Under the pieces are notes generated by a model. That model searched no databases. It was given only the letters and a program-made list of their open reading frames with translations, and had not been told where the DNA came from. DNA of 64,000 bases from assembly GCF_036226405.1 (NCBI RefSeq), contig NZ_CP108464.1, positions 6,324,001 through 6,388,000 of the forward strand, read 5' to 3'. The translations under genes and the position numbers were made by a program. Each line of letters starts with the position of its first letter. The first letter of the stretch is position 1. The stretch comes from Streptomyces sp. NBC_01260. Its GTDB lineage: Bacteria; Actinomycetota; Actinomycetes; Streptomycetales; Streptomycetaceae. Below, one piece after another: positions 7,818 through 21,076 of this stretch.

Positions 7818-9080
7818 GTGACCACCCTCGGAACCGGCGTTCTGCGCGTCCGGCACTGGCTGCGCGACCATCCGCTCGCGCTGGACGGAGCGCTCGCCCT
7901 GGGCGTGCTCGTGTCCATGATCATCGGTTCGTTCGCCGATCCGAGCTCGCACAGCGGACCCACCTTCGGCACCCGCACGCCCGCCGCGAGCAGCGTGCTC
8001 CTGATGGTGCTGGGCGCCCTCGCCCTGGTGTGGCGGCGCCGCCACCCGATGGCGGTCCTGGTCGCCACCGGCGGGCTGACGGTCGTCGAGCTGGTGATGG
8101 TGGACCCGCCGGCCCCGGTGGTGATGAGCGTGGTCATCGCGCTGTACACCATCGCCGCCCGCACCGACCGGCCGACCACCTGGCGGGTCGGGCTGCTCAC
8201 GATGGCCGCGCTCACCGCCGCCGCGATGTTCTTCGGATCGGCGCCCTGGTACAGCCAGGAGAACTTCGGTGTCTTCGCCTGGACCGGCATGGCGAGCGCC
8301 GCGGGGGACGCGGTGCGTTCCCGGCGCGCGTTCGTCGACGCGATCCGGGAGCGCGCCGAACGGGCCGAGCGGACGCGTGAGGAGGAGGCCAGGCGAAGGG
8401 TGGCCGAGGAACGGCTGCGGATCGCCCGCGATCTGCACGACGTCGTCGCCCACCACATCGCCCTGGTCAACGTGCAGGCCGGGGTCGCGGCCCACGTCAT
8501 GGACAAGCGCCCCGACCAGGCCAAGCAGGCGCTCGCCCACGTCCGCGAGGCGAGCCGCTCCGCGCTCAACGAACTGCGGGCCACCGTCGGGCTGCTGCGC
8601 CAGTCCGGCGACTCCGAGGCACCGACCGAACCCGCCCCCGGCCTCGCCGTCCTCGACGCGCTCGTGGAGACCGTGCGCCGGGCGGGGCTGCCCGTCGAGG
8701 TGGCCTGCGCGACCGGGGACGGCCCGCCGCTGCCCGCCGCCGTGGACCTGGCCGCGTACCGGGTGATCCAGGAGGCGCTGACCAATGTGCGCAAGCACGC
8801 GGGTCCCGGAGCGAAGGCCGAGGTGAGTGTCGTACGGGTCGGGGCCACGGCCGAGGTCATGGTGCTCGACAACGGCCGCGGAAACCCGGACGGCGGGGGC
8901 GAAGGCGGCGGCCATGGGCTGCTCGGTATGCGGGAACGGGTCACGGCTCTGGGCGGCACCCTCGCCGCCGGACCCCGTTACGGCGGCGGTTTCCGCGTCC
9001 ATGCGATCCTGCCCGTCAAGGCCCTCCCGCAGCAGTCGGAGCAACCGGACGTGGTGGGCCGGACGGGGGAGAACGCATGA
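7818..9080 (+). CDS. NarL-type sensor histidine kinase (HisKA_3)
   Basis: Membrane sensor kinase of 420 residues. The N-terminal about 165 residues carry four to five hydrophobic helices (e.g. ALDGALALGVLVSMIIG, SSVLLMVLGALALVW) with short loops, so sensing is probably within the membrane. A linker coiled coil leads to the H-box RDLHDVVAHHIALVNVQAG, with the phospho-accepting His, and an ATPase domain with EALTNVRKHA (N box), VLDNGRG and GHGLLGMRERV. The GTG at 7818 has no strong ribosome-binding site. The stop overlaps the response regulator start by 4 bp (ATGA). Its stimulus is unknown; the RND exporter gene downstream is a plausible target. Confidence 0.88.
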   Translation: MTTLGTGVLRVRHWLRDHPLALDGALALGVLVSMIIGSFADPSSHSGPTFGTRTPAASSVLLMVLGALALVWRRRHPMAVLVATGGLTVVELVMVDPPAPVVMSVVIALYTIAARTDRPTTWRVGLLTMAALTAAAMFFGSAPWYSQENFGVFAWTGMASAAGDAVRSRRAFVDAIRERAERAERTREEEARRRVAEERLRIARDLHDVVAHHIALVNVQAGVAAHVMDKRPDQAKQALAHVREASRSALNELRATVGLLRQSGDSEAPTEPAPGLAVLDALVETVRRAGLPVEVACATGDGPPLPAAVDLAAYRVIQEALTNVRKHAGPGAKAEVSVVRVGATAEVMVLDNGRGNPDGGGEGGGHGLLGMRERVTALGGTLAAGPRYGGGFRVHAILPVKALPQQSEQPDVVGRTGENA

Positions 9081-9772
9081 CACCGGCCATCAGGGTCCTG
9101 CTCGTCGACGACCAGGCGCTGCTGCGCAGCGCGTTCCGGGTGCTGGTCGACTCGGAGCCCGACATGCAGGTGGTCGGCGAGGCGGCGGACGGCGCGCAAG
9201 CGGTGGAGCTGGCCCGGTCGACCTGCGCCGACGTGGTGCTGATGGACATCAGGATGCCCGGAACGGACGGGCTCACCGCGACCCGGATGATCAGTGCCGA
9301 CCCGGATCTCGCCGGAGTGCGCGTGGTCATGCTCACCACCTTCGAGGTGGACGAGTACGTGGTGCAGTCGCTGCGGGCCGGTGCCTCGGGCTTCCTGGGC
9401 AAGGGGGCGGAACCGGACGAACTCCTCAACGCCATCCGTGTCGCCGCGGCCGGCGAGGCGCTGCTCTCACCGGCCGCGACCAAGGGGCTGATCGCCACGT
9501 TCCTCGCACAGGGCGGCGGTTCGGACGGCGAGGGGCCGGACGCCGCGGAGTACTCCGAGCGCCTCGCGGCCCTCACCACACGGGAGCGGGAGGTGCTGGT
9601 CCTGGTCGCGGGCGGGCTCTCCAACGACGAGATCGCCGAGCGCCTGGTGGTCAGCCCGCTCACCGTCAAGACGCATGTGAACAGGGCGATGGCGAAGCTG
9701 GGCGCCCGCGACCGGGCCCAATTGGTGGTAACAGCCTACGAATCGGGCCTTGTCCGCCCCAGGGTGGAGTGA
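9077..9772 (+). CDS. NarL/FixJ family response regulator
   Basis: DNA-binding partner of the kinase encoded immediately upstream (ATGA overlap). The 231 residues have a receiver domain with the acidic pair in VLLVDDQALL, phospho-acceptor Asp in VVLMDIRMPG, Thr in VVMLTTFEVD, and a divergent last motif GFLGKGAEPDELL in which the conserved Lys is kept. The C-terminal LuxR-type HTH reads LTTREREVLVLVAGGLSNDEIAERL then SPLTVKTHVNRAM. It probably autoregulates and may control the RND gene 165 bp downstream; that link is inferred from position only. Confidence 0.9.
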   Translation: MTPAIRVLLVDDQALLRSAFRVLVDSEPDMQVVGEAADGAQAVELARSTCADVVLMDIRMPGTDGLTATRMISADPDLAGVRVVMLTTFEVDEYVVQSLRAGASGFLGKGAEPDELLNAIRVAAAGEALLSPAATKGLIATFLAQGGGSDGEGPDAAEYSERLAALTTREREVLVLVAGGLSNDEIAERLVVSPLTVKTHVNRAMAKLGARDRAQLVVTAYESGLVRPRVE

Positions 9773-9937
9773 GGGTGCAGCCGCGGCGTACTCCACCTGC
9801 GGTATGCGCGGCATAAGAAAGCGACCTGGGACCGACGCTTTCGGTCCGTCGGACAAGCGATCGTATAGATGGGCCGGGTCTGTCCCCGTGTTACCCCGCC
9901 CACCTGCCGCGTAAGCCACAGAAGAGAGACCTCACCC

Positions 9938-12900
9938 ATGTCCTGGCTGTCCAGATTCAGCCTCGCGCAAAGGGCCCTGATCGGGCTGATCTCGATCGTC
10001 GCGCTCGTATTCGGAGCGATTGCGATCCCGCAGCTCAAGCAGCAACTGCTGCCCACCATCGAACTTCCGATGGTGTCGGTGCTCGCCCCCTATCAGGGCG
10101 CGTCCCCCGATGTGGTCGAGAAGCAGGTCGTCGAACCGCTCGAGAACTCGATCAAGTCCGTCGACGGTGTCACCGGAATCACCTCGACCGCCAGCGAGGG
10201 CAACGCCGTCATCATGGCGTCCTTCGACTTCGGCGACGAGGGCACCAAGCAGCTCGTCGCGGACATCCAGCAGGCGGTGAACCGCGCCCGCGTCCAGCTG
10301 CCCGACGGTGTGGACCCGCAGGTCATCGCCGGTTCGACGGATGACATCCCGACCGTCGTCCTCGCAGTCACCTCCGGCAAGGACCAGCAGGCGCTCGCCG
10401 ACCAGCTGGACCGTACCGTGGTCCCCGCACTGGAGGCCATCGACGGTGTCGGTCAGGTGTCCGTCGACGGTGTGCAGGACCTCCAGATCTCCATCACCCC
10501 CGACGACAAGAAGCTCAGCTCCGCCGGCCTGAACGCGACCTCGCTCTCCCAGGCACTCCAGGCGGGCGGCGCGACCGTCCCGGCGGGTTCCTTCTCCGAG
10601 TCGGGCAAGAGCCGCACCGTCCAGGTCGGTGGCGCCTTCACCTCCCTGAAGCAGATCGAGGACCTGCGGGTCACCGGCCAGGACCCGACGACGGGCAAGC
10701 CCGGCGAGCCGGTCCGCATCGGTGACATCGCGACGGTGAAGCAGGAGCCGTCCACCGCGGTCTCCATCACCCGTACGAACGGCAAGCCGAGCCTCGCCGT
10801 CATGGCCACGATGGACAAGGACGGCAGCGCCGTCGCCATCTCGGACGCGGTCAAGGACAAGCTCCCGGACCTGCGCAAGGACCTCGGCGCCGGCGCCGAG
10901 CTGACCGTCGTCACCGACCAGGGCCCGCCCGTCTCCAAGGCCATCTCGGGTCTGACCACCGAGGGCGCGCTCGGCCTGCTCTTCGCGGTCATCGTGATCC
11001 TGGTCTTCCTGGCCTCGCTCCGCTCGACCCTGGTCACCGCGGTCTCCATCCCGCTCTCCGTGGTCCTCGCACTGATCGTGCTCTGGACCCGCGACCTCTC
11101 GCTCAACATGCTCACCCTGGGCGCGCTGACCATCGCGATCGGCCGGGTCGTCGACGACTCGATCGTCGTCCTGGAGAACATCAAGCGCCACCTCAGCTAC
11201 GGGGAGGAGCGCCAGTCCGCGATCCTCGCCGCGGTGAAGGAAGTGGCCGGCGCGGTCACCGCCTCGACCCTCACCACGGTCGCCGTATTCCTGCCGATCG
11301 GTCTGGTCGGCGGCATGGTCGGCGAGCTCTTCGGCTCGTTCTCGCTGACGATCACCGCGGCGCTGCTGGCCTCCCTGCTGGTCTCGCTGACCGTCGTCCC
11401 TGTCCTGTCCTACTGGTTCCTGCGCGCCCCCAAGGGCAGCGCCGAGAACCCGGACGAGGCCCGGCGCAAGGCCGAGGAGAAGGAAGCCCGCAGCAAGCTC
11501 CAGCAGATGTACGTCCAGGTGCTGGGCTTCGCCACCCGGCGCCGCGTCGTCAGTGTGGTCATCGCCGTCGTCGTGCTGATCGGCACCTTCGGCATGGCTC
11601 CGCTGCTGAAGACCACCCTCTTCGACCAGGGCGAGCAGGAAGTCCTTTCCATCAAGCAGGAGTTGACCCCGGGCACCAGCCTGGCGGCCGCCGACGAGGC
11701 GGCCAGGAAGGTCGAGAAGCTCCTCGCCGACGACAAGGCCGTCAAGGAGTACCAGGTCACCGTCGGCTCGTCCGGCTTCATGGCGGCCTTCGGCGGCGGC
11801 ACGGGGGCCAACCAGGCCTCCTACCAGGTCACGCTGAAGGACCCGGCCGAATACGACGCCACCGAGAAGCGCCTCGGCGAGGCGCTCGGCAAGCTCGACG
11901 GCATCGGTGACACGACCTTCGGCGAGGCCGGCGGTTTCGGCAGCCAGGACCTGAGCGTCGTGGTCAAGGCCGCCGACGCGGACGTCCTGACGAAGTCCTC
12001 CGAAATGGTGCGCAAGGCGGTGGCCGGCCTCAAGGACGTCAGCGACGTCCAGAGCGACCTGTCGCAGAGCATCCCCCGGATCTCGGTCAAGGCCAACGCC
12101 AAGGCCGCCGACGCCGGTTTCACCCAGGCAGCCCTGGGAGCGGCCGTCGCCGGTGCGGTGAAGGGCACCCCCTCAGGCAAGGCGATCATGGACGACACCG
12201 AGCGTGATGTCGTCATCAGGTCCGCCCACCCGGCCGCCACGATGGCCGAGCTGAAGAACCTCCCGCTCGGCCCGGTCAAGCTCGGCAGCATCGCCGACGT
12301 GAAGCTGGTCCCCGGACCGGTCTCCATGACACGGATCGACGGCCAGCGCGCCGCGACGATCACCGCCAAGCCCGTCGGTGACGACACAGGCGACGTCAGC
12401 AAGGCGCTCCAGAAGGAGATCGACTCCCTGGACCTCCCGGACGGTGCCACCGCCACCATCGGCGGCGTCTCCGAGGACCAGAAGGACGCCTTCGTCAAGC
12501 TGGCCCTGGCCATGCTGGCGGCCGTCGCGATCGTCTTCATGCTGCTGGTCGCCACCTTCCGGTCGCTCATCCAGCCGCTGATCCTGCTGGTCTCCATCCC
12601 GTTCGCCGCCACCGGCGCGATCGGCCTGCTCCTCATCACCGGGACCCCGATGGGCGTCGCGGCGATGATCGGCATGCTGATGCTGATCGGCATCGTGGTG
12701 ACCAACGCGATCGTGCTGATCGACCTGATCAACCAGTACCGGGCGCAGGGCATGGGCGTCGTCGAGGCGGTCGTCGAGGGTGGACGCCACCGGCTGCGCC
12801 CGATCCTGATGACGGCCCTGGCGACCATCTTCGCCCTCCTCCCGATGGCGCTCGGCGTCACCGGCGAGGGCGGCTTCATCTCGCAGCCGCTGGCCGTCGT

Positions 12901-13093
12901 GGTCATCGGCGGTCTGGTCACCTCGACGCTGCTGACGCTGCTCCTGGTGCCGACGCTGTACGCCATGGTGGAGCTCCGCAAGGAGCGCCGCGCGAAGAAG
13001 AAGGCCGCGAAGCGCGCCGCCAAGGCGGGCGGGCCGGCCCCGGCCGAGTCGGAGGAGGCCTCCTCCGAGGAGCCGGAGCCCGCGAAGGCCTGA
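9938..13093 (+). CDS. RND family efflux permease (AcrB/HAE1-like)
   Basis: Large proton-driven exporter of 1051 residues in the cytoplasmic membrane. It shows the RND pattern of one N-terminal helix (MSWLSRFSLAQRALIGLISI), a porter-like extracytoplasmic domain of about 300 residues, helices 2-6, a second porter domain and helices 8-12. Helix 4 holds the paired aspartates of the proton relay in GRVVDDSIVVLENIKRH. The C-terminus is basic, then acidic. I chose the ATG at 9938, preceded by GAAGAGAGAC, over an upstream GTG at 9869. No adaptor or outer-membrane factor gene is nearby, as expected in an actinobacterium. The gene follows a NarL-type two-component system and ends at a strong terminator. 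The substrate is unknown. Confidence 0.9.
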   Translation: MSWLSRFSLAQRALIGLISIVALVFGAIAIPQLKQQLLPTIELPMVSVLAPYQGASPDVVEKQVVEPLENSIKSVDGVTGITSTASEGNAVIMASFDFGDEGTKQLVADIQQAVNRARVQLPDGVDPQVIAGSTDDIPTVVLAVTSGKDQQALADQLDRTVVPALEAIDGVGQVSVDGVQDLQISITPDDKKLSSAGLNATSLSQALQAGGATVPAGSFSESGKSRTVQVGGAFTSLKQIEDLRVTGQDPTTGKPGEPVRIGDIATVKQEPSTAVSITRTNGKPSLAVMATMDKDGSAVAISDAVKDKLPDLRKDLGAGAELTVVTDQGPPVSKAISGLTTEGALGLLFAVIVILVFLASLRSTLVTAVSIPLSVVLALIVLWTRDLSLNMLTLGALTIAIGRVVDDSIVVLENIKRHLSYGEERQSAILAAVKEVAGAVTASTLTTVAVFLPIGLVGGMVGELFGSFSLTITAALLASLLVSLTVVPVLSYWFLRAPKGSAENPDEARRKAEEKEARSKLQQMYVQVLGFATRRRVVSVVIAVVVLIGTFGMAPLLKTTLFDQGEQEVLSIKQELTPGTSLAAADEAARKVEKLLADDKAVKEYQVTVGSSGFMAAFGGGTGANQASYQVTLKDPAEYDATEKRLGEALGKLDGIGDTTFGEAGGFGSQDLSVVVKAADADVLTKSSEMVRKAVAGLKDVSDVQSDLSQSIPRISVKANAKAADAGFTQAALGAAVAGAVKGTPSGKAIMDDTERDVVIRSAHPAATMAELKNLPLGPVKLGSIADVKLVPGPVSMTRIDGQRAATITAKPVGDDTGDVSKALQKEIDSLDLPDGATATIGGVSEDQKDAFVKLALAMLAAVAIVFMLLVATFRSLIQPLILLVSIPFAATGAIGLLLITGTPMGVAAMIGMLMLIGIVVTNAIVLIDLINQYRAQGMGVVEAVVEGGRHRLRPILMTALATIFALLPMALGVTGEGGFISQPLAVVVIGGLVTSTLLTLLLVPTLYAMVELRKERRAKKKAAKRAAKAGGPAPAESEEASSEEPEPAKA

Positions 13094-13111
13094 TCCGCGT
13101 TGCCCGACGAG

Positions 13112-13149
13112 AGGGCCCTGTCCCACGCACCCGCGTGGGACAGGGCCCT
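13112..13149. terminator. bidirectional terminator, 17-bp perfect stem
   Basis: Arms 13112-13128 and 13133-13149 are perfectly complementary with an ACCC loop, followed by a short T-run at 13156-13160. It separates the RND gene from the convergent caspase-STAND gene. Confidence 0.88.
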
Positions 13150-13188
13150 TCCCGGTTTTTCCGGCGGTTCTCCGGCGGGCGGTGAGCG

Positions 13189-16100
13189 TCAGGCGGCCCC
13201 GCTTCCGCTGAGCGCCTGGACGATACGGAGCCACGTCGCACCGTGCGGGTGGGCGTGCTGGACGCTGAGGGCGCAGATCTCCCTCAGCAGCCGGACCCGG
13301 ATCTCCTCGCGCGCCCGGGGCAGGAGCGTGGCCAGATCGTTCGGTTCGACGCCCTCGACCGCCCCGGAGAGCACCATGCCCGCCTGGGCGTGGGTGAGGG
13401 AGGACAGCTTGTCGTCGAAGACCTGCCCCTCCACGGCGGCCGCGTGCATCAGCGCGTTGCCGTCCCCGGCCGCCAACGCCCTTTCCACGTACGCCTGGAG
13501 GGCGTCGCGGTCCTCAACGAGGCGGTACGCGGCGTCCAGTCCTTCGGTGCGGGCGACATCGAGGACGGCGACGTGCGCGAGCGGAGTGGCCCCGGACGGC
13601 TGGACCTGGAGGATGCGGGGGTGGTCCTGGAGGAAGACCCGTGACTCCGCCCAGGTGTCGCACTCCACCCACTCCGCCAACTGCTCCCTGAGGATCAGCG
13701 GATCGTAGGCGGCGGTCACGCCGTGGAGGAGGACGGCCTCGCGGAGCGCGGCGTGCTGCAGCGCGGTGCGGGGGTCCAGGAGGGCCGCTTCTTCGAGGGC
13801 GGTAGCTGTCTCCCGGCTGCTGAGGGCCTCGGCGTTCCGGGACCAGAAGTCGCGTGACTGGGGCCAGTTGGGCGCGAACATCCAGGAACTGACGAGGTTC
13901 AGAGTCTCCGGCAACAGGGTGAGCCAGGCCGGTGCGGGGGCAAGGATTTCCGTCTCCCACGCCATGCGGACCGCGTCGGGATCGCCGTACGCGCGCAGCG
14001 CCCGCCGGGCCCGTACGGTCGCGGTGTCCGCCGTACCCGGCCCTCCGGAATCCTTGTCGAGGAACACCAGCAGTTCACGTAGGCCGGCCTCGGCCCAGGG
14101 GGCGGGGCAGGACAGCAGGAAGACGGCACGCTCCACGCCGAGGCGGCGAGCGGTCGCGGGGTGGGCTGCCGCGAAGTCCTCCACGGCCGCGTCGAAAGCG
14201 CGGATCGCCGATGCGTGGTCGTCCGTGCGGGTGAGACCCTCGGCCAGGTTGTTGAGAGCGGAGGTGAACACCGTCTCGAAGGCGCCGGGGTCCGCCATGG
14301 CCAGGCTCCGCCGGATGGCGACCGCTTCCCGCGCCGCAGTCACCGCCCTGCCGTAGTCGCGGTTCTGCCCCAGGTACACGCCGATGTTGTTGAGGGCGGT
14401 GGCGAGATCGGGAAGGAAGGCATCGGCCTGGTCGGCGACGAGCTCACGCCAGAGCCGTACGGATTCATGGGCCGATGACAGCGCTTCTTGCGGACTCCCC
14501 GTCGCGGCGAGGCTCTCCGAGAGCGGGGTGAGCGCTCCTGCGAGGCCGTGGCGGAAGGAGACCGGGTCCTGTGCGATGAGTTCGCGGTGGATGGCGACGG
14601 ACTCCTCGGCCGCCCGCAGTGCGGCGGCCGGGTCCCTGGCGTCGTTGAGGTGGTTGGCCAGGTTGCCGAGCGTGTCGGCAAGGTCCACGCGGAAGACGGC
14701 AGGCTGCCGCGCGACGAGTTCACGCTGGATGGCGAGCGCTTCCCGGGTCGATTCGAGCGCGCCTGACACGTCGCCGACGACAGCGCGATTGCTGCCCAGG
14801 TGGCAGAGCGTGATGGCGAGCTTGGGAGAGAAGGCGTTCGGGTCCCGTGAGACGAGGCGCCGAGTGACGCTGACCGCTTCCTCGGCCGGGGTCAGAGCCG
14901 CTGAGGCTTCCCCGGCGGAGACGAGCGCACGTGCGAGGTTGTGGAGGAAGTCGGCGAGCACCGGAAGGTGTGCGGCCGGATGTTCCGCGACCAGTTCACG
15001 TTGGACGCGTACGGCCTCTCGCACCAATGCCACAGCGGTCTCCCGGTCTGCGGCCGTTGTCGTCGAGGCCAGGGTGTTCAGGGACATGGCGAGTCCCGCG
15101 CGGAACGCACCAGGGTGTTCTGCGGCGAGCCCGGCGTACAGACGTGCCGCCTCCCGCGCCGGGGCACGCGCCGCCTCGCGCTCCCCGGTGGCGGAGATGC
15201 GCTGCGACAGAACATGGAGAGCGTTGGCCAGACCCGGCAGGAAAGCGGCCGGATGGCGCGGACCGAGGTCCCGGTAGAGGCGTACCGCCTCCCGCGCGAC
15301 CGCGAGGGCCCCCTCGCGGTCCCCGGCACTGGCGCGGTGCTTGGACAAGTCGCTCAGGGAACCGGCCAACAGGGGCAGATCGGCACAGTGGCGTTCGGCC
15401 TTGGTCCGCCGGATGCGGACGGCCTCCTCCGCATGTGACAGCGCGTCCGCACGAGCGCCGGTTTCGCTGAGGTGGTCTGCCAGATTGGCGAGGGCGGAGG
15501 CGAGCTCGCCCAGAAACGCGTCCGGGTGACGTGTGGCGAGCTCGCGGTAGATGCCGACCGCTTCCTCCGTGTGCGGGAGCGCCGCCCGGTGGTGTCCGCC
15601 GGCCCCCAGATGGGCCGCGAGGTTGGCGAGTGCGGCGGCGAGACCAGGACGGAAGGCCGATGAGCTCCGCGTGGTGAGTTCACGGTAGATGCGCACGGCT
15701 TCCCGCGCCGGATCGAGGGCGCCCTCGTGGTCGCCGACGCCCGCGAGGCGGTTGCCGAGGGTGCTGAGGGAAGCCGCCAGAGCCGGGAGCACGTCGGCGG
15801 CCCCGGAATGGGCCAGTGCCCGCTGGATGAGGACCGCCTCCCGCGCGGGTGCCAGAGCCCCCGCTCGATCGCCGGTGGCGGCGCAACGGGCGGCCACACC
15901 GGTCAGAGCACGGGCCACCGCGGCCCGGTGGCTTCCCGGAGACTCTCGTTCCAGTTCCTCCCACAGGGACAGTGCCTTCCGCGCGGCGGACAGCGCTCCC
16001 TCCAGTTCTCCCGCCGCGTCCAGCAACTGCGAGAGGACGTGGAGCGCTTCGGCCAGATACGGTGCCGCGCCCACCCCGCCCCGCTCCACCAGCCCCCGCA

Positions 16101-18243
16101 GCATCCCGATCCCCGGTGCGCCCTCCCGCGCCGCGTGCCGCGCCAGTGCCCGCACCACGTACGGATCGACCGCCCCCCAGTCGCCGCCCACCGCCCGCCG
16201 CTCGACGTGCGCGATGAGCGCGGCCAGTGCCACCTCGCCGGCCTCGGCACGCCCCGGTCCCTCCCGGTCCGCGAGGTATGACACGAACTCGCGGTGGTAC
16301 AGGCGGTACACCGCCTGCCCGTCCTCGGAGTCCTCGACGACGTAGCGGCCGTATGCGGACAGCACCCAGTCCACGTCGTCCTCGCCGTACGACACGTCAC
16401 CGCCGCTCAGTGCCCCGGCGACCTCCTCCCACACGCCTCCGGCCGGCATACCGCGCCCGACGGTCCACGCGAGGGCCGTCAGCAGGTCCCTGGCGGCGGA
16501 CGGCAGTTCGGTGCCGTCCGCCAGGACCCGTACCGGCCCCGCCCGCAGGTCCTCCTCGAACGCGGCCTCGATGGAGTCCGGCAGACCGGCCGGCCACTGA
16601 GCCCCGCCGGTGACACGACCCCCCGCCAGCAGCGAGCCCGCCACCAGCCGCGCGAACAGGAACCCGCCGTCCACCGCCGTCGCACGGGCCGCGACCGCGT
16701 CGCCCGCCTCCCGCGCCCGGCCCTCCGGGACACCGGCGGCCGTGCACCGGCGGAACACGTACTCACTGATGTCCGCCCGGGTGTGCGGCTCCCGCTCCAG
16801 GTCCGCGGTGGTGACACCCGCACCGATCAGCCGGGCCAGAGCGTCCGGCAGGGTCTCGTTCCCCTCCCCGTCCTCCGCGATACGGCTGCGGAACGCGCGG
16901 TCGCGGGAGCCCAGCAGGACCGGGCTCGTCCGGCTGAGCGGGAAGACCAGCTCCTCGATCATGGTGCGGAGGTGTTCGGCCGGTACTTCGTCCAGGCCGT
17001 CCAGCACCAGCACCGGCTGCGGGGACAACGCGCGGAGCTCTCCCCGCAAGTCGTCCGCGTTGCGCGGTTCCGGCAGTCCGAGTTGCCGGGCCAGCTCCGA
17101 GGCCGCCTGGAGAGGGCTCAGGCCTCGCAGATGCACGGAGGCGAGGGAGCGGCCGGGGCGCAGGCCCGGGTCCGGGTCGTCCTCGCGCAGGCCCCCGTGC
17201 GCCTCGGTCTCCCTCCGCTGCACGGGATCGGTGAGCGTCGCGATCCGGCCCAGCACGGCCGACTTGCCGCAGCCCGCCGGGCCGGTCACCAGGAAGAGCC
17301 CGGCAGCGTCCGCCTCCAGCCATGCGGCGATCCGGCCCAGCACCTCCTTCCGGCCCGTGAAGAACCAGCCCTCCTCACGGTGCCCGACCCCGCGCGCCGC
17401 GAGCACCAGGTGCTCCACCAGCCGGGCAGGGGTCCCGGGCACATGGCGCGGGTTGGGAAAGACCGGGCGCCCGGTGCCGAGGGTGGCGGGCACCGGTGTC
17501 TGGCCCTCGCCGCGCCACCGCTCACCCAGCGCCGCCAGCAGGTCCGGGCCGCTGACCAGCTCGTTGTGGGCGCTCCAGGCCGAGCGGTACTCGGTGGTGG
17601 CGGGGCCGGACCTCAGGACCCGCGCCAACGCGGTGAGCAGCGGGCCACTGCCCTCCGACGTCTCGTCGCGCCGGCAGCTCGCCATGATCCCGAACCACTT
17701 GGCCTGGCCGGGCGGCGTGGAGGTGGCCGCCCAGCGCCGCAGGGTCTTCTCCAGGCCCCGGCCCACCGCGTCCCCCGCGTAGCAGGTGTCGATGATCACC
17801 AGGATCTGGTCGGCGCCCGACGCCACCGCGTCGTTGACCAGCGTCTCGGCCGGGACGCCCCGTCTGAGAGCACGTGCGTCGCGCGTCACCTGATCGGCGT
17901 CGAGCTCCAGGTCGCAGAGCGCGAGGCGCAGTTCGTCGTCGATCAGCACGCCGTGCCCCGACCAGACGATGATCGCGGGCCTCGCCTCCCCCGTCTCCCG
18001 CCAGCCCTCGCTCCAGGCCGTGAGGGACTCGTCGAAGGCCGCCCGGGACGGGTTCCCGCCGCCCACCACATGTGCGGCGATCCCCAGACCCTCCAGCAGT
18101 GCGGCGACCTCCTCCATCTGGGCCACCGCCCCGGTCAGCCGGGGAAAGCTCCGCCTGTCGGCGTACTCCTCGCACACCACGCACAGCGCCGTCCCCACCG
18201 GCTCGTTCCCACCGTCGCCCGCCACGCCCGGCTCACGCACCAT
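13189..18243 (-). CDS. caspase-like protease / STAND NTPase / TPR-repeat protein (1684 aa)
   Basis: A multidomain protein with the layout of NTP-dependent conflict and abortive-infection proteins. Residues 1-245 form a peptidase C14 (caspase/metacaspase-like) domain with the His in [10 protein letters not shown] (His97) and Cys in [11 protein letters not shown] (Cys154). Residues 290-660 form a STAND/NACHT-like NTPase: [11 protein letters not shown], Walker A GPAGCGKS (321-328), Walker [11 protein letters not shown] (411-420), an arginine-containing [12 protein letters not shown], and the late [14 protein letters not shown]. About 14 TPR-like repeats of roughly 46 residues fill 729-1373, consensus L..AL.NLA..L...GD...AL..AREAV.IYREL. 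The last about 310 residues have no motif I recognise. The ATG at 18243 overlaps the upstream lipase gene by 11 bp. I infer that the repeats sense, the NTPase switches, and the protease acts. Confidence 0.9.
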
Positions 18244-19642
18244 GGCCCGCCCCGTTCTCCAGTACCAGCACCAGCGCGGTCATCACGACATGGCCCGCGT
18301 TTCCCGTACTCACCCGCACCCGGTGCGGTCCGGCCGGCAGCCCGGCCAGGCGTGCCGCGTAGCGGCCCCCGCCCAGGTTGTTCAGCGTCCGCACCGGCCG
18401 GCCCCCGGGCGCCGCGAAGACGGCCACCCGGTCGTGGCCCCGTATGTCCGGCGGGACCGTGGCCCGCAGCTCGTACACCTCGCCCTCGGTGATCGCGTCC
18501 GGGGCGTCCACCACCAACGGCACCTCCACGCCCTCCGGGCCCCGGTGGACCGGCGGGTCCGGGGTGAGCCAGTTGTAGAGGGCCTGGCGCAGCGCCGTGT
18601 TGTTCTGGAGCGAGCCGTGCTTCTCCCAGGGTGTGTACGCGGGCCGCCCCGCCGCCCCCACATGGGCGCTGGAGAGCCTGGGTACGCGGCCGTCGCCGCC
18701 CTCGTCGGTCCCGTCGATGGTGAGCAGTCCGGTCAGCCTCTCGCCCCGGACCTCGGCGGTGGTCGGCGTCGGCTGGAGCACCCCGCTGACCGGTACGTAC
18801 TCCACCCCGTACGCCGCCCCCGCCCCGGACTCCCGCAGCGCCCCGTGGAAGCGGGCGGCGTCCTTGAGCAGGCGCGTGTCGGTCCCGGGCAGGCCGGTCA
18901 CCTCACGGGCGTACCGCAGCGGCTCACCCGGCGCGGTGATCAGCGCGGCGTAGTCGGGGACGAGCTGGTGGAGGGACGGAAGGCTGCGGGCGAACGCGCT
19001 GAGGCCGGCACCGGCCGGGCCCACCCCGTTGACCAGATGGAGCAGGGCGTCCAGGGAGCCCCGGTACGGGGTTCCGAGCGTGATCACGCGGCGCGTCGTC
19101 TCCGCGCCGCCGCCTTGCTCCACGTACTGGCGGGCGACCAGTCCGCCCATCGAGTGGCAGACGAAGACGACCCGGGCCGTGGCCCGCTGCGGTGCCGAGG
19201 CCCGCCAGCGGCCGAGCTCCTCATCCACCCGCTCGGCCGGCCGGTCCGCGTTGTACCGGCAGGAGAGCCGCCAGTCGTAGCCGAAGCCGATCAGGTTGGC
19301 GGGGGCACAGGACTCGTCCCTCACGCCCCGGCGGCGCAGTGTGAAGTGGCGCTCCAGCCAGTCCAGGAAGCCGTCGTAGCCGTCCACGAGCGTCCCGATG
19401 CCCGGCAGGCCGTGCAGGTCGCGCACCGGACCGAGCGGGCGCACGCCGTCGCCCGGGTGAGCGTCGCCCAGGTCCTTGGGAAGCGCCAGCCCCTTGACGG
19501 ACCGGCCGAAGGTACGGATGCCCCGGAGGAGGGCCCGGCCCGAGAGGCCCCAGACCTCGTGCCCGTCCGCGTCCGCCAGCCGGCTGCCGAGAATGCCCGG
19601 GACGACGACCACCAGATCGTCCACCGGGCTGCGAGAAGTCAT
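18233..19642 (-). CDS. LCAT-like serine lipase/acyltransferase with C-terminal beta-sandwich domain
   Basis: A 469-residue alpha/beta hydrolase of the lecithin:cholesterol acyltransferase / phospholipase type. The start [12 protein letters not shown] carries the LCAT oxyanion motif; the nucleophile is Ser164 in [14 protein letters not shown]; the likely triad Asp and His are Asp317 (GGDGRVPR) and His342 (EKHGSLQNN). GFGYDWRLS is also LCAT-like. Residues about 365-469 look like an immunoglobulin-like or Ca-binding-type beta sandwich ([15 protein letters not shown] ... [11 protein letters not shown]). There is no signal peptide or membrane helix, so it should stay in the cytoplasm and could attack the cell's own membrane. 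It is the first gene of a two-gene operon, overlapping the caspase-STAND gene by 11 bp. Confidence 0.88.
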
Positions 19643-19754
19643 GTGGCGCCGTACCCCCGTGAATGTGCGCTGCGGTGAGTAGCAGCGTAATTACGGAACG
19701 GACATCCTGGGTGCCGTATGGGGGAAAATCAGCCCGCCGCCACCACCTGCGCGA

Positions 19755-19792
19755 AAGGCCCCGGAGAAACGCCCGAAGGCGCCCCGGGGCCT
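19755..19792. terminator. putative terminator with 10-bp stem
   Basis: Complementary arms 19755-19764 and 19783-19792 enclose an 18-nt loop, just past the nadA stop. It would end nadA transcription before the lipase operon on the same strand. Confidence 0.6.
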
Positions 19793-19804
19793 TGTGCGGC
19801 CGGG

Positions 19805-20992
19805 CTACGGCAGGGCCAGCATCCGCTCAAGCGCCAGCTTGGCGTACTTCTCCGTCTCCGGATCGACCTCGATCCGGTTCACGAGGTTGCCCTCGGCCAG
19901 CGACTCCAGCGTCCACACCAGGTGCGGCAGGTCGATCCGGTTCATCGTCGAGCAGAAGCACACCGTCTTGTCGAGGAAGACGATCTCCTTGTCCTCGGCA
20001 GCGAAACGGTTCGCCAGCCGGCGGACCAGGTTCAGTTCGGTGCCGATCGCCCACTTGGAACCGGCCGGGGCCGCCTCCAGGGCCTTGATGATGTACTCCG
20101 TCGAGCCGACGTGGTCCGCGGCCGCCACGACCTCGTGCTTGCACTCCGGGTGCACCAGCACGTTGACGCCGGGTATGCGGGCGCGCACGTCGTTGACGGA
20201 CTCCACCGAGAAGCGCCCGTGCACCGAGCAGTGCCCGCGCCACAGGATCATCTTCGCGTTGCGCAGCTCCTCGGCGGTCAGCCCGCCGCCCGGCTTGTGC
20301 GGGTTGTAGAGGACGCAGTCCTCCAGGGTCATCCCCATGTCCCGTACGGCGGTGTTCCGGCCCAGGTGCTGGTCCGGCAGGAAGAGGACCTTCTCCCCCT
20401 GCTCGAAGGCCCACTCCAGCGCGCGCTTCGCGTTCGACGAGGTGCATATGGTGCCGCCGTGGCGGCCGGTGAAGGCCTTGATGTCGGCGGAGGAGTTCAT
20501 GTACGAGACGGGTACGACCTGCTCGGCGACCCCGGCCTCGGTCAGCACGTCCCAGCACTCGGCGACCTGCTCGGCGGTGGCCATGTCGGCCATCGAGCAG
20601 CCCGCCGCCAGGTCCGGCAGCACGACCTTCTGGTCGCCGGTGGTCAGGATGTCCGCGGACTCGGCCATGAAGTGCACACCGCAGAAGACGATGTACTCGG
20701 CCTCCGGACGCGCCGCGGCGTCGCGCGCCAGCTTGAACGAGTCACCGGTGACGTCCGCGAACTGGATGACCTCGTCGCGCTGGTAGTGGTGCCCGAGGAT
20801 GAAGACCTTCTCCCCCAGCTTCTCCTTGGCAGCGCGGGCGCGCTCCACCAGGTCCGGGTCGGACGGGGAGGGCAGGTCGCCGGGGCATTCGACGCCGCGC
20901 TCGCTCCTGGGGTCGGCGTCGCGGCCGAGCAGGAGCAGGGCGAGGGGCGACGGCTGGACGTCGAGTTCCTGGACGGGGTGGGCCGTGGTCAC
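19805..20992 (-). CDS. nadA: NadA, quinolinate synthase
   Basis: Condenses iminoaspartate with dihydroxyacetone phosphate to quinolinate for NAD synthesis, using a 4Fe-4S cluster. The 395 residues (GTG at 20992, with AGAAAGG 8 nt upstream) contain KVFILGHHYQRDEVIQFAD, VFCGVHFMAESADIL with the first cluster Cys, LPDLAAGCSMADM, PVSYMNSSADIKA, CTSSNAKRAL, FLPDQHLGRN, ILWRGHCSVHGRFS, VHPECKHEVV, GSTEYI, and TVCFCSTM near the end. A GTG at 21001 is in frame but directly abuts the purine tract. No nadB or nadC gene lies beside it. Two palindromes 85-120 bp upstream may be repressor sites. Confidence 0.95.
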   Translation of the reverse strand: MTTAHPVQELDVQPSPLALLLLGRDADPRSERGVECPGDLPSPSDPDLVERARAAKEKLGEKVFILGHHYQRDEVIQFADVTGDSFKLARDAAARPEAEYIVFCGVHFMAESADILTTGDQKVVLPDLAAGCSMADMATAEQVAECWDVLTEAGVAEQVVPVSYMNSSADIKAFTGRHGGTICTSSNAKRALEWAFEQGEKVLFLPDQHLGRNTAVRDMGMTLEDCVLYNPHKPGGGLTAEELRNAKMILWRGHCSVHGRFSVESVNDVRARIPGVNVLVHPECKHEVVAAADHVGSTEYIIKALEAAPAGSKWAIGTELNLVRRLANRFAAEDKEIVFLDKTVCFCSTMNRIDLPHLVWTLESLAEGNLVNRIEVDPETEKYAKLALERMLALP

Positions 20993-21076
20993 GTCACGCA
21001 CCCTTTCTTCTCTGCGAGGAGCTTCTCTACGAGGAGCCTTTTCGTCGAATTGACGCTATCTATCATAACCGCTTCA

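Follow-up and report, generated by a model that had tools for sequence, protein, structure and literature searches.

A Streptomyces LCAT-like lipase paired with a caspase-STAND-TPR protein: a candidate two-gene conflict module with exchangeable protease partners

The two-gene locus

The window analyzed here, a stretch of 64,000 nucleotides from Streptomyces sp. NBC_01260 (contig NZ_CP108464.1, positions 6,324,001 to 6,388,000), carries on its reverse strand two overlapping genes, the first of which (gene A) encodes an LCAT-like lipase and the second (gene B) a protein joining a caspase-like protease, a STAND NTPase and an array of tetratricopeptide repeats (TPR). The original prediction had singled out this pair as a candidate conflict or cell-suicide module, and the genes, motifs and 11-bp overlap it described are corroborated by the open reading frames (ORFs), the conserved residues and the folds. 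In window coordinates, the module consists of the following features.

18233..19642, reverse strand: gene A, LCAT/lysosomal-phospholipase-A2-like lipase, 469 residues
18557..19642, reverse strand: catalytic alpha/beta-hydrolase domain of gene A, residues 1-362 (fold span 6-362)
19151-19153 (S164), 18692-18694 (D317) and 18617-18619 (H342), reverse strand: predicted catalytic triad of gene A
18521..18556, reverse strand: interdomain linker of gene A, residues 363-374, with R367 (18542-18544) as candidate cleavage point, predicted
18263..18520, reverse strand: C-terminal immunoglobulin (Ig)/filamin-like beta-sandwich of gene A, residues 375-460, from profile match and strands
18233..18243, reverse strand: overlap of genes A and B, 11 nucleotides
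13189..18243, reverse strand: gene B, ORF for the caspase-STAND-TPR protein, 1684 residues
17449..18195, reverse strand: caspase-like protease domain, gene B residues 17-265, with H97 (17953-17955) and C154 (17782-17784)
16564..17376, reverse strand: STAND NTPase, gene B residues 290-560, with Walker A (17260-17283) and Walker B (16984-17013)
14218..16068, reverse strand: TPR array, gene B residues 726-1342, putative sensor; 13 hidden Markov model (HMM) hits, Pfam TPR_10/TPR_12
13192..14217, reverse strand: C-terminal region of gene B, residues 1343-1684

Gene A falls within the LCAT / Group XV phospholipase A2 family, with a PF02450 match of 28.9 bits (curated cut-off 21), a Ser-Asp-His triad that shows no substitution across 73 aligned rows, and the fold of the family, the nearest folds to its catalytic domain being those of lysosomal phospholipase A2, LCAT and Tle4. 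By family, fold and triad, its product looks like a phospholipase-like enzyme. The beta-sandwich foreseen at its C-terminus is also there, with a profile match to a filamin repeat (7p0e) over positions 375-454 (E 9e-6). A lower-confidence stretch (block 361-370, mean predicted local distance difference test score 64) precedes this domain, and the linker residue R367 is kept in 66 of 73 nearer relatives. The top full-chain Foldseek match of gene A is BlEst2 (6wpx/6wpy), a lipase with solved propeptide and mature structures in which an alpha/beta-hydrolase is likewise followed by a beta-sandwich, although the domain arrangement is not superposable overall (TM-score, for template modelling, 0.35) and the catalytic part alone aligned; we know of no caspase partner for BlEst2.

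The N-terminal domain of gene B shows a His-Cys dyad in a caspase fold, as is proper to the caspase superfamily (clan CD), and the domain that follows has the marks of a STAND NTPase: Walker A, Walker B with an acidic pair, a related fold resembling ORC/Cdc6, NLRC4 and CED-4 in Foldseek, and C-terminal repeats, with Pfam AAA_16 and AAA_22 scores slightly under their cut-offs. None of the best Pfam stretches of gene B falls within residues 1343-1684. Metacaspases, like MALT1, cleave after basic residues, and in them the pocket for such residues is shaped by an Asp two residues N-terminal of the catalytic Cys; in the 54 lipase-paired caspase-STAND proteins described below, which retain the His/Cys dyad without exception (54/54), Asp occupies this position in 36, Asn in 12 and Glu in 6.

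Among 50 gene B orthologues, median identity reaches 85% in the caspase domain, 85% in the STAND domain and 76% in the C-terminus, and drops to 55% in the TPR array. Comparison of the window pair with that of locus L073 gives a synonymous divergence (dS) of 0.69 for the TPR part against 0.13-0.25 for the other parts, and a ratio of nonsynonymous to synonymous divergence (dN/dS) of 0.53 against 0.34-0.69. These figures point to a history of the TPR segment that differs from that of the rest of gene B, through recombination or repeat conversion, as expected of a diversifying recognition part; positive selection alone as a cause of TPR divergence is countered by a dN/dS of 0.53 combined with raised dS. 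Per-position TPR variability, read in a 46-residue register that slips, revealed no clear single surface. In the relatives at loci L042, L058 and L036, WD40 repeats take the place of TPR. The fast divergence of the TPR array suggests the recognition of changing targets.

Linkage and co-evolution of the two genes

Searching 295 genomes of the genus with the lipase gave 82 rows with E up to 9.4e-15. All but two of these (G026:C5 and the row for the latter half of the L077 gene) were taken as loci, designated by L numbers and 80 in all; partner HMMs were seeded from the window's own domains and then iterated over the same 80 loci. A caspase-STAND gene lies near the lipase in 54 of the 80 Streptomyces loci, from 48 genomes, and in 51 of these 54 the two genes overlap or are separated by at most 100 nucleotides (the gap is 168 nucleotides in L077, 506 in L048 and 2230 in L036), some "overlaps" being artefacts of start choice, as ORFs were taken from their first possible start. 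The genes share a strand with the lipase first in 23 loci and with the caspase first in 15, and they are divergent in 16; since three gene orders occur, it is proximity that has been retained, and not one frozen operon. The partners also vary together, with a Mantel r of 0.655 between lipase and caspase distances and of 0.581 between lipase and STAND distances (0 of 5000 permutations as high), and within the five genomes that have at least two pairs, 10 of 11 tests favour the cognate partner. The co-occurrence that the original prediction proposed to check by homology search is thus upheld in this genus, at a level well above chance.

Further data sets point the same way. For 17 of the 41 closest lipase clusters, contigs are exactly as long as the contig of a gene-B cluster, the first 41 lipase clusters having been compared with the first 96 gene-B clusters. 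A set of named genomes also yielded 80 loci. Of the 39 with a lipase score of at least 300 bits, 27 have an adjacent caspase-STAND gene; of the 41 lower-scoring LCAT-like loci, where the HMMs may be less sensitive, none does. These pairs extend to Lentzea, Nocardia, Actinocrinis, Actinoplanes, Catellatospora and a metagenome-assembled genome (MAG) of the Acidimicrobiia. The 12 high-scoring loci that lack an adjacent caspase-STAND gene comprise two with a CHAT partner (L133, L134), three with a transglutaminase-like partner (L144, L148, L162), one that is the same place as L109 (L155), one at a contig end (L127), one with a caspase-STAND gene 2.9 kb away (L140) and four to which no partner class was assigned (L120, L128, L131, L135); in L128, caspase and STAND lie in separate frames more than 2.5 kb from the lipase.

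In L077 (genome G171) the lipase is split into two frames and followed by two caspase-STAND genes, as in a decaying or duplicated copy. The genome of the window itself holds two equal-scoring caspase-like matches, at C1:46128-47054 (forward strand) and C1:9077303-9078229 (reverse strand), in open frames of 1540 codons (also L239); lying at mirror distances from both ends of C1, they are probably in terminal inverted repeats. Finally, P0218 and P0221-P0228 are gene-B relatives of about 1350-1430 residues and 58-59% query coverage, from which the caspase part seems to be absent.

Exchange of the protease partner

The partner of the lipase is not always a caspase, and the 80 Streptomyces loci can be divided into these classes.

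Caspase-STAND partner: 54 loci
CHAT partner: 2 loci, L032 (Pfam-scanned) and L034 (by gene order only)
Transglutaminase-like partner: 8 loci, L062, L063, L092, L095, L098, L102, L108 and L109
STAND-lipase fusion, no protease seen there: 2 loci, L094 and L101
Contig end: 3 loci, L039, L041 and L087
Lipase in two pieces: 1 locus, L078
Ser replaced by Gly, no partner: 3 loci, L049, L085 and L086
Outside the other classes: 7 loci, L033, L045, L055, L091, L104, L106 and L110

A protease and/or STAND partner is therefore present in 66 of the 80 loci, with L034 counted by gene order alone. The CHAT form, found in L032, recurs in Mesorhizobium (L133) and in an Ardenticatenales MAG (L134, with a TCAD7 domain), and on a Bradyrhizobium plasmid (L302) an annotated CHAT protein directly follows the lipase. 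Beyond the 80 loci, transglutaminase-like partners accompany the lipase in a cyanobacterium (L144), in L148 and L162, and on a Rhizobium (L301) and a cyanobacterial (L303) plasmid. In these partners and in those of the eight Streptomyces loci, the N-terminal transglutaminase-like domain is followed by STAND (nSTAND5) or NACHT and often by a long TPR array. The transglutaminase-like domain scores under its Pfam cut-off, and the Cys (HxTCLD), His and Asp positions are conserved in nine aligned partners. The NCBIfam model "anti-phage protein ProA" matches this domain stretch in all five such partners scanned (L062, L098, L092, L144 and L162) at 31-62 bits, its cut-off being 1500; no paper on that ProA protein was identified in the open-licence literature.

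The arrangement of the partners bears on how the lipase might be switched on. L094 and L101 encode direct fusions of the lipase with a STAND-type domain and show no protease. This, together with the variable gene order, would suit a conflict module that works without cleavage, in which the oligomerized STAND protein recruits the lipase and switches it on as a second subunit or parallel effector, and the caspase cuts other cell proteins. We regard such a scheme as unlikely, if still deserving of attention, because the exchange of caspase, CHAT and transglutaminase-like proteases around the lipase is hard to explain if the protease is irrelevant, because the basic linker residue is well conserved among near lipase relatives, and because one of the two fusions, L101, has an altered triad His.

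Some caspase-STAND loci might comprise a third gene. A large SF1-helicase-like gene (superfamily 1; AAA_11/AAA_12) comes after the lipase and caspase-STAND genes in L058, L067 and L099, as a possible three-gene extension, and gene order is similar in L061 and L100, the Pfam scan having covered L058, L067 and L099.

Insertion point and mobility

The module is set between the following elements.

19805..21001, reverse strand: insertion-point flank, labelled nadA (label from the original prediction; homologue in 40 of 41 genomes)
13111..13150, forward strand: terminator-like hairpin between the module and the convergent gene
9869..13093, forward strand: other flank, RND-type transporter by sequence reading

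A promoter scan of 19500-20000, limited to the sigma-70 consensus, found none. A survey of nadA gave 40 matches in 41 genomes, and 30 nadA loci with DNA were compared. The lipase follows nadA in two of these, whereas in 17 the 3' end of the RND gene lies within about 1 kb and the module is absent; the remaining 11 show neither lipase nor RND end in the available flank, at least two of them being at contig ends. As the RND gene comes directly after nadA in many relatives, the module occupies a site that is often empty. In the nearest relatives a gene of 398 to 412 residues, nadA by position (confirmed by tblastn in two loci), adjoins the module, and in other lineages the flanks differ. Lipase rows of at least 55% identity were found in 16 of the 295 genomes among the matches listed, the genome of the window included (15 rows covering at least 83% of the query plus a partial row in G166). 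The sporadic distribution and the absence of universal conservation on which the original prediction depended are both supported by these data.

The adjacency of a nadA-position gene in the nearest relatives could be taken as a sign of ordinary lipid metabolism or of a housekeeping function linked to nadA. This explanation is most improbable, given the low number of genomes with closely related lipases, the caspase-STAND partner and the different flanks in other lineages. Vertical housekeeping beside nadA, in particular, was rejected on the grounds that the lipase follows nadA in just two of 30 loci.

Relatives of the lipase are also found on 34 plasmid records, of which 10 are typed as conjugative and four as mobilizable in PLSDB. 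Four of the 34 were examined for partner genes: the Rhizobium, Bradyrhizobium and Sphaerospermopsis plasmids, typed as conjugative, carry a CHAT or transglutaminase-like/NTPase partner, and pSCL4 of S. clavuligerus, typed as mobilizable, carries the caspase-STAND form. On the Bradyrhizobium plasmid, genes annotated as ImmA/IrrE, S8 peptidase and AbiEi/AbiEii are found close to the lipase-CHAT pair, a setting that resembles a defence island.

Co-option of related NLR-like systems is possible, as illustrated by LypABC, which drives the lysis that releases gene transfer agents (PMC13236601). The pair might by analogy be a developmental or lysis-control module of Streptomyces, serving programmed hyphal death or release instead of acting against invaders. 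We consider this very unlikely in view of the patchiness at the nadA site, the relatives on conjugative rhizobial plasmids and the fast-diverging TPR part.

Proposed mechanism and evidence against it

We interpret the pair as a two-gene NLR-like module for conflict, abortive infection or programmed death, in which a sensor signals to a protease and the protease to a phospholipase, and we assign to this reading a probability of roughly 60%. Its directly visible foundations are the domain content, catalytic residues and folds of the two proteins, their linkage and co-evolution, the TPR divergence and the exchange of proteases around one lipase family. From there we infer a trigger, an assembly step, a signal running from protease to lipase, cleavage, membrane attack and a role in defence. 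The TPR array of gene B would sense a trigger, probably an invader protein, allowing the STAND NTPase to assemble and to switch on the N-terminal caspase-like protease; the general logic of STAND proteins (PMC7159879) lies behind these first signalling steps. The protease would then activate the cognate gene A phospholipase, most simply by a cut in the linker before the Ig-like domain, with a candidate site after R367, freeing an active site that the Ig-like domain could cap. Once active, the phospholipase would hydrolyse membrane phospholipids from inside, and the cell would be killed or arrested before the invader spreads.

We propose the protease-to-lipase step because protease families have been exchanged around one lipase family, because the partners co-evolve and because there is precedent: in phage defence, pro-nucleases with insertions that block their active site are activated by proteases of the caspase and trypsin-like kinds, and the authors of that work expect further classes of proteolytically activated enzymes (PMC12799240). 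As the unit is a simple one of two genes, its catalytic residues are defined and it offers a candidate cleavage point, the question of whether the caspase switches on the lipase can be tested directly.

Several observations weigh against this interpretation. Turning first to linkage, the association is looser when approached from gene B, for only nine of 18 full-span caspase-STAND hits in 41 genomes adjoin such a lipase, and a split nineteenth match (L237) also lacks one; as the converse search profile was built from lipase-linked partners, this rate is, if anything, too high. Among the nine hits without lipase, two are at contig ends, and L236 and L233 have other neighbours. The proposal of a conflict or cell-suicide module is partly sustained, by co-occurrence, co-evolution, patchiness, plasmid relatives and a fast-diverging presumed sensor, but the caspase-STAND gene is not constantly associated with the lipase. 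The immediate flanks of the module, which were considered here in place of the wider window, are nadA and RND genes. Raised dS in the TPR part implies, moreover, that selection accounts for no more of the TPR divergence than recombination or conversion does. With regard to cleavage, just 29 of the 80 wider loci have R in the R367 column and 47 have a gap there, and the activity of Thermoanaerobacter EstA3 fell after deletion of its beta-sandwich (PMC10816834), so that cleavage at R367 stays a prediction.

As to the neighbours of caspase-STAND genes without lipase, the one in L236 (4932-5756) encodes a 275-residue alpha/beta-hydrolase with weak PGAP1/Abhydrolase_6 matches and overlaps the caspase-STAND gene, and the one in L233 (9974-10903) abuts it and encodes a 310-residue protein with no Pfam match.

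The catalytic residues of the lipase provide a further set of adverse observations. Of the 80 loci, 70 have an intact triad, as do 50 of the 54 lipases paired with a caspase, but L051, L054, L056 and L057 keep the caspase while their lipase has Ser replaced by Ala and His by Asn; these four related pairs imply that a catalytic lipase is not always needed. In the opposite situation, Ser is lost in only three of the 26 loci without caspase (L049, L085 and L086, all to Gly), and six loci without a recognized partner (L033, L045, L055, L091, L104 and L106) keep the triad, making lipase decay in the absence of a partner a hint and not a rule. The altered His of the STAND-lipase fusion L101 is a Tyr.

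The four dead triads, paired as they are with an intact caspase dyad, lend themselves to a different explanation, in which the lipase-like protein mainly regulates the caspase-STAND protein or serves as its docking partner, the effector being the caspase or the repeats. The pentapeptide-repeat gene that follows the lipase in L051 would fit this arrangement, as would EACC1, which is credited with such a role and whose systems have a membrane component as 5' gene (PMC7159879). The intact triad of 50 of 54 caspase-paired lipases makes it improbable as a general account. In L051 the lipase (8285-9661) is followed by a gene for a 647-residue pentapeptide-repeat protein (9678-11618), and L050 has the same arrangement with its Ser intact; effector replacement is a possible explanation for this gene in the dead-triad clade.

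Comparison with known systems

The closest resemblances to the module are with systems already in print. In VMAP (MoxR-vWA) ternary systems the caspase is always found with a neighbouring alpha/beta-hydrolase gene, with which it has been suggested to operate, and rare transglutaminase-like peptidases are also listed among VMAPs (Kaur et al. 2020, PMC7159879). The module shares with them the caspase domain and the neighbouring alpha/beta-hydrolase gene, but differs in having no VMAP-C at the locus, the one VMAP-C hit of its genome being at C1:2508152 and the module near 6.34 Mb; the pair was thus rejected as a VMAP system. Twenty VMAP loci scanned with a crude motif brought up one hydrolase-like neighbour, a 508-residue protein that the lipase HMM does not match at E up to 1, and this is a sample of one; its locus, L269, is the one caspase-VMAP locus recognized. 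The caspase HMM is narrow, having missed the Pfam-detected caspase of L269.

EACC1 systems have a 3' gene with an N-terminal caspase and a variable C-terminus that may include STAND and repeats (PMC7159879). The likeness lies in the two-gene unit and in a 3' gene combining caspase with STAND and repeats, the model NF047832 scoring 40.3 bits; the difference is that the 5' gene is here phospholipase-like and not the EACC1 transmembrane component, with no EACC1 Pfam match listed. A plain EACC1 system was rejected, since the 5' gene encodes an enzyme and 40.3 bits fall well below the NF047832 cut-off of 140, a score suggestive of remote kinship only between the gene B caspase and that type.

Nuclease-protease pairs such as Canu (PMC12799240, Science 2025) also place an effector beside a protease with which it co-evolves, share the pair between systems and include a caspase version. 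The Canu effector is, however, a metallo-beta-lactamase (MBL)-fold nuclease with demonstrated proteolytic activation, whereas the module has a lipase, for which activation would be similar; there is no MBL-fold nuclease partner, the other gene of the two-gene unit being the lipase. The CARD-NLR/bacterial gasdermin systems, in turn, resemble the module in that a protease and an NTPase control a killing effector, and phospholipases can replace gasdermin in CARD-NLR variants (PMC13236601). They differ from it in that caspase, STAND and repeats are here in one chain, and neither gene A nor gene B protein has a Pfam match to CARD or gasdermin, although a weak CARD could be missed.

PADLOC-DB 2.0.0 gave no confident model match, with no hits for the lipase and a best E of 0.0017 for gene B. 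In the main text of PMC7159879 and of its 2021 sequel, "lipase" and "LCAT" do not occur as word starts, and "phospholipase" occurs once in the former. No paper describing the lipase/caspase-STAND pair was recognized in searches of the open-licence PubMed Central literature. Within that literature, the remark in the original prediction that no described system with this pair was known thus stands for this precise pair, but its elements do not share that novelty, as the pairing of caspase with alpha/beta-hydrolase (VMAP) and the fusion of caspase, STAND and repeats (EACC1) had both been reported (PMC7159879). What was already known, then, is the logic of the module and its relatives; what sets it apart is a distinct lipase family, a locus that lacks both VMAP-C and EACC1, and a repeated exchange of proteases of which we know no description.

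More generally, we put at about even odds the existence of cross-phylum protease-lipase pairs, in which an LCAT-type pro-phospholipase with a removable Ig-like cap is repeatedly paired with a protease of the caspase, CHAT or transglutaminase-like type, in most cases fused to an NLR-type sensor, as a membrane-killing counterpart of the 2025 nuclease-protease pairs. If true, proteolytic zymogen activation in bacterial immunity would extend from nucleases to a phospholipase, and the combination of sensor NTPase, caspase and membrane rupture would draw a parallel with animal inflammasomes, with an enzyme taking the place of the pore.

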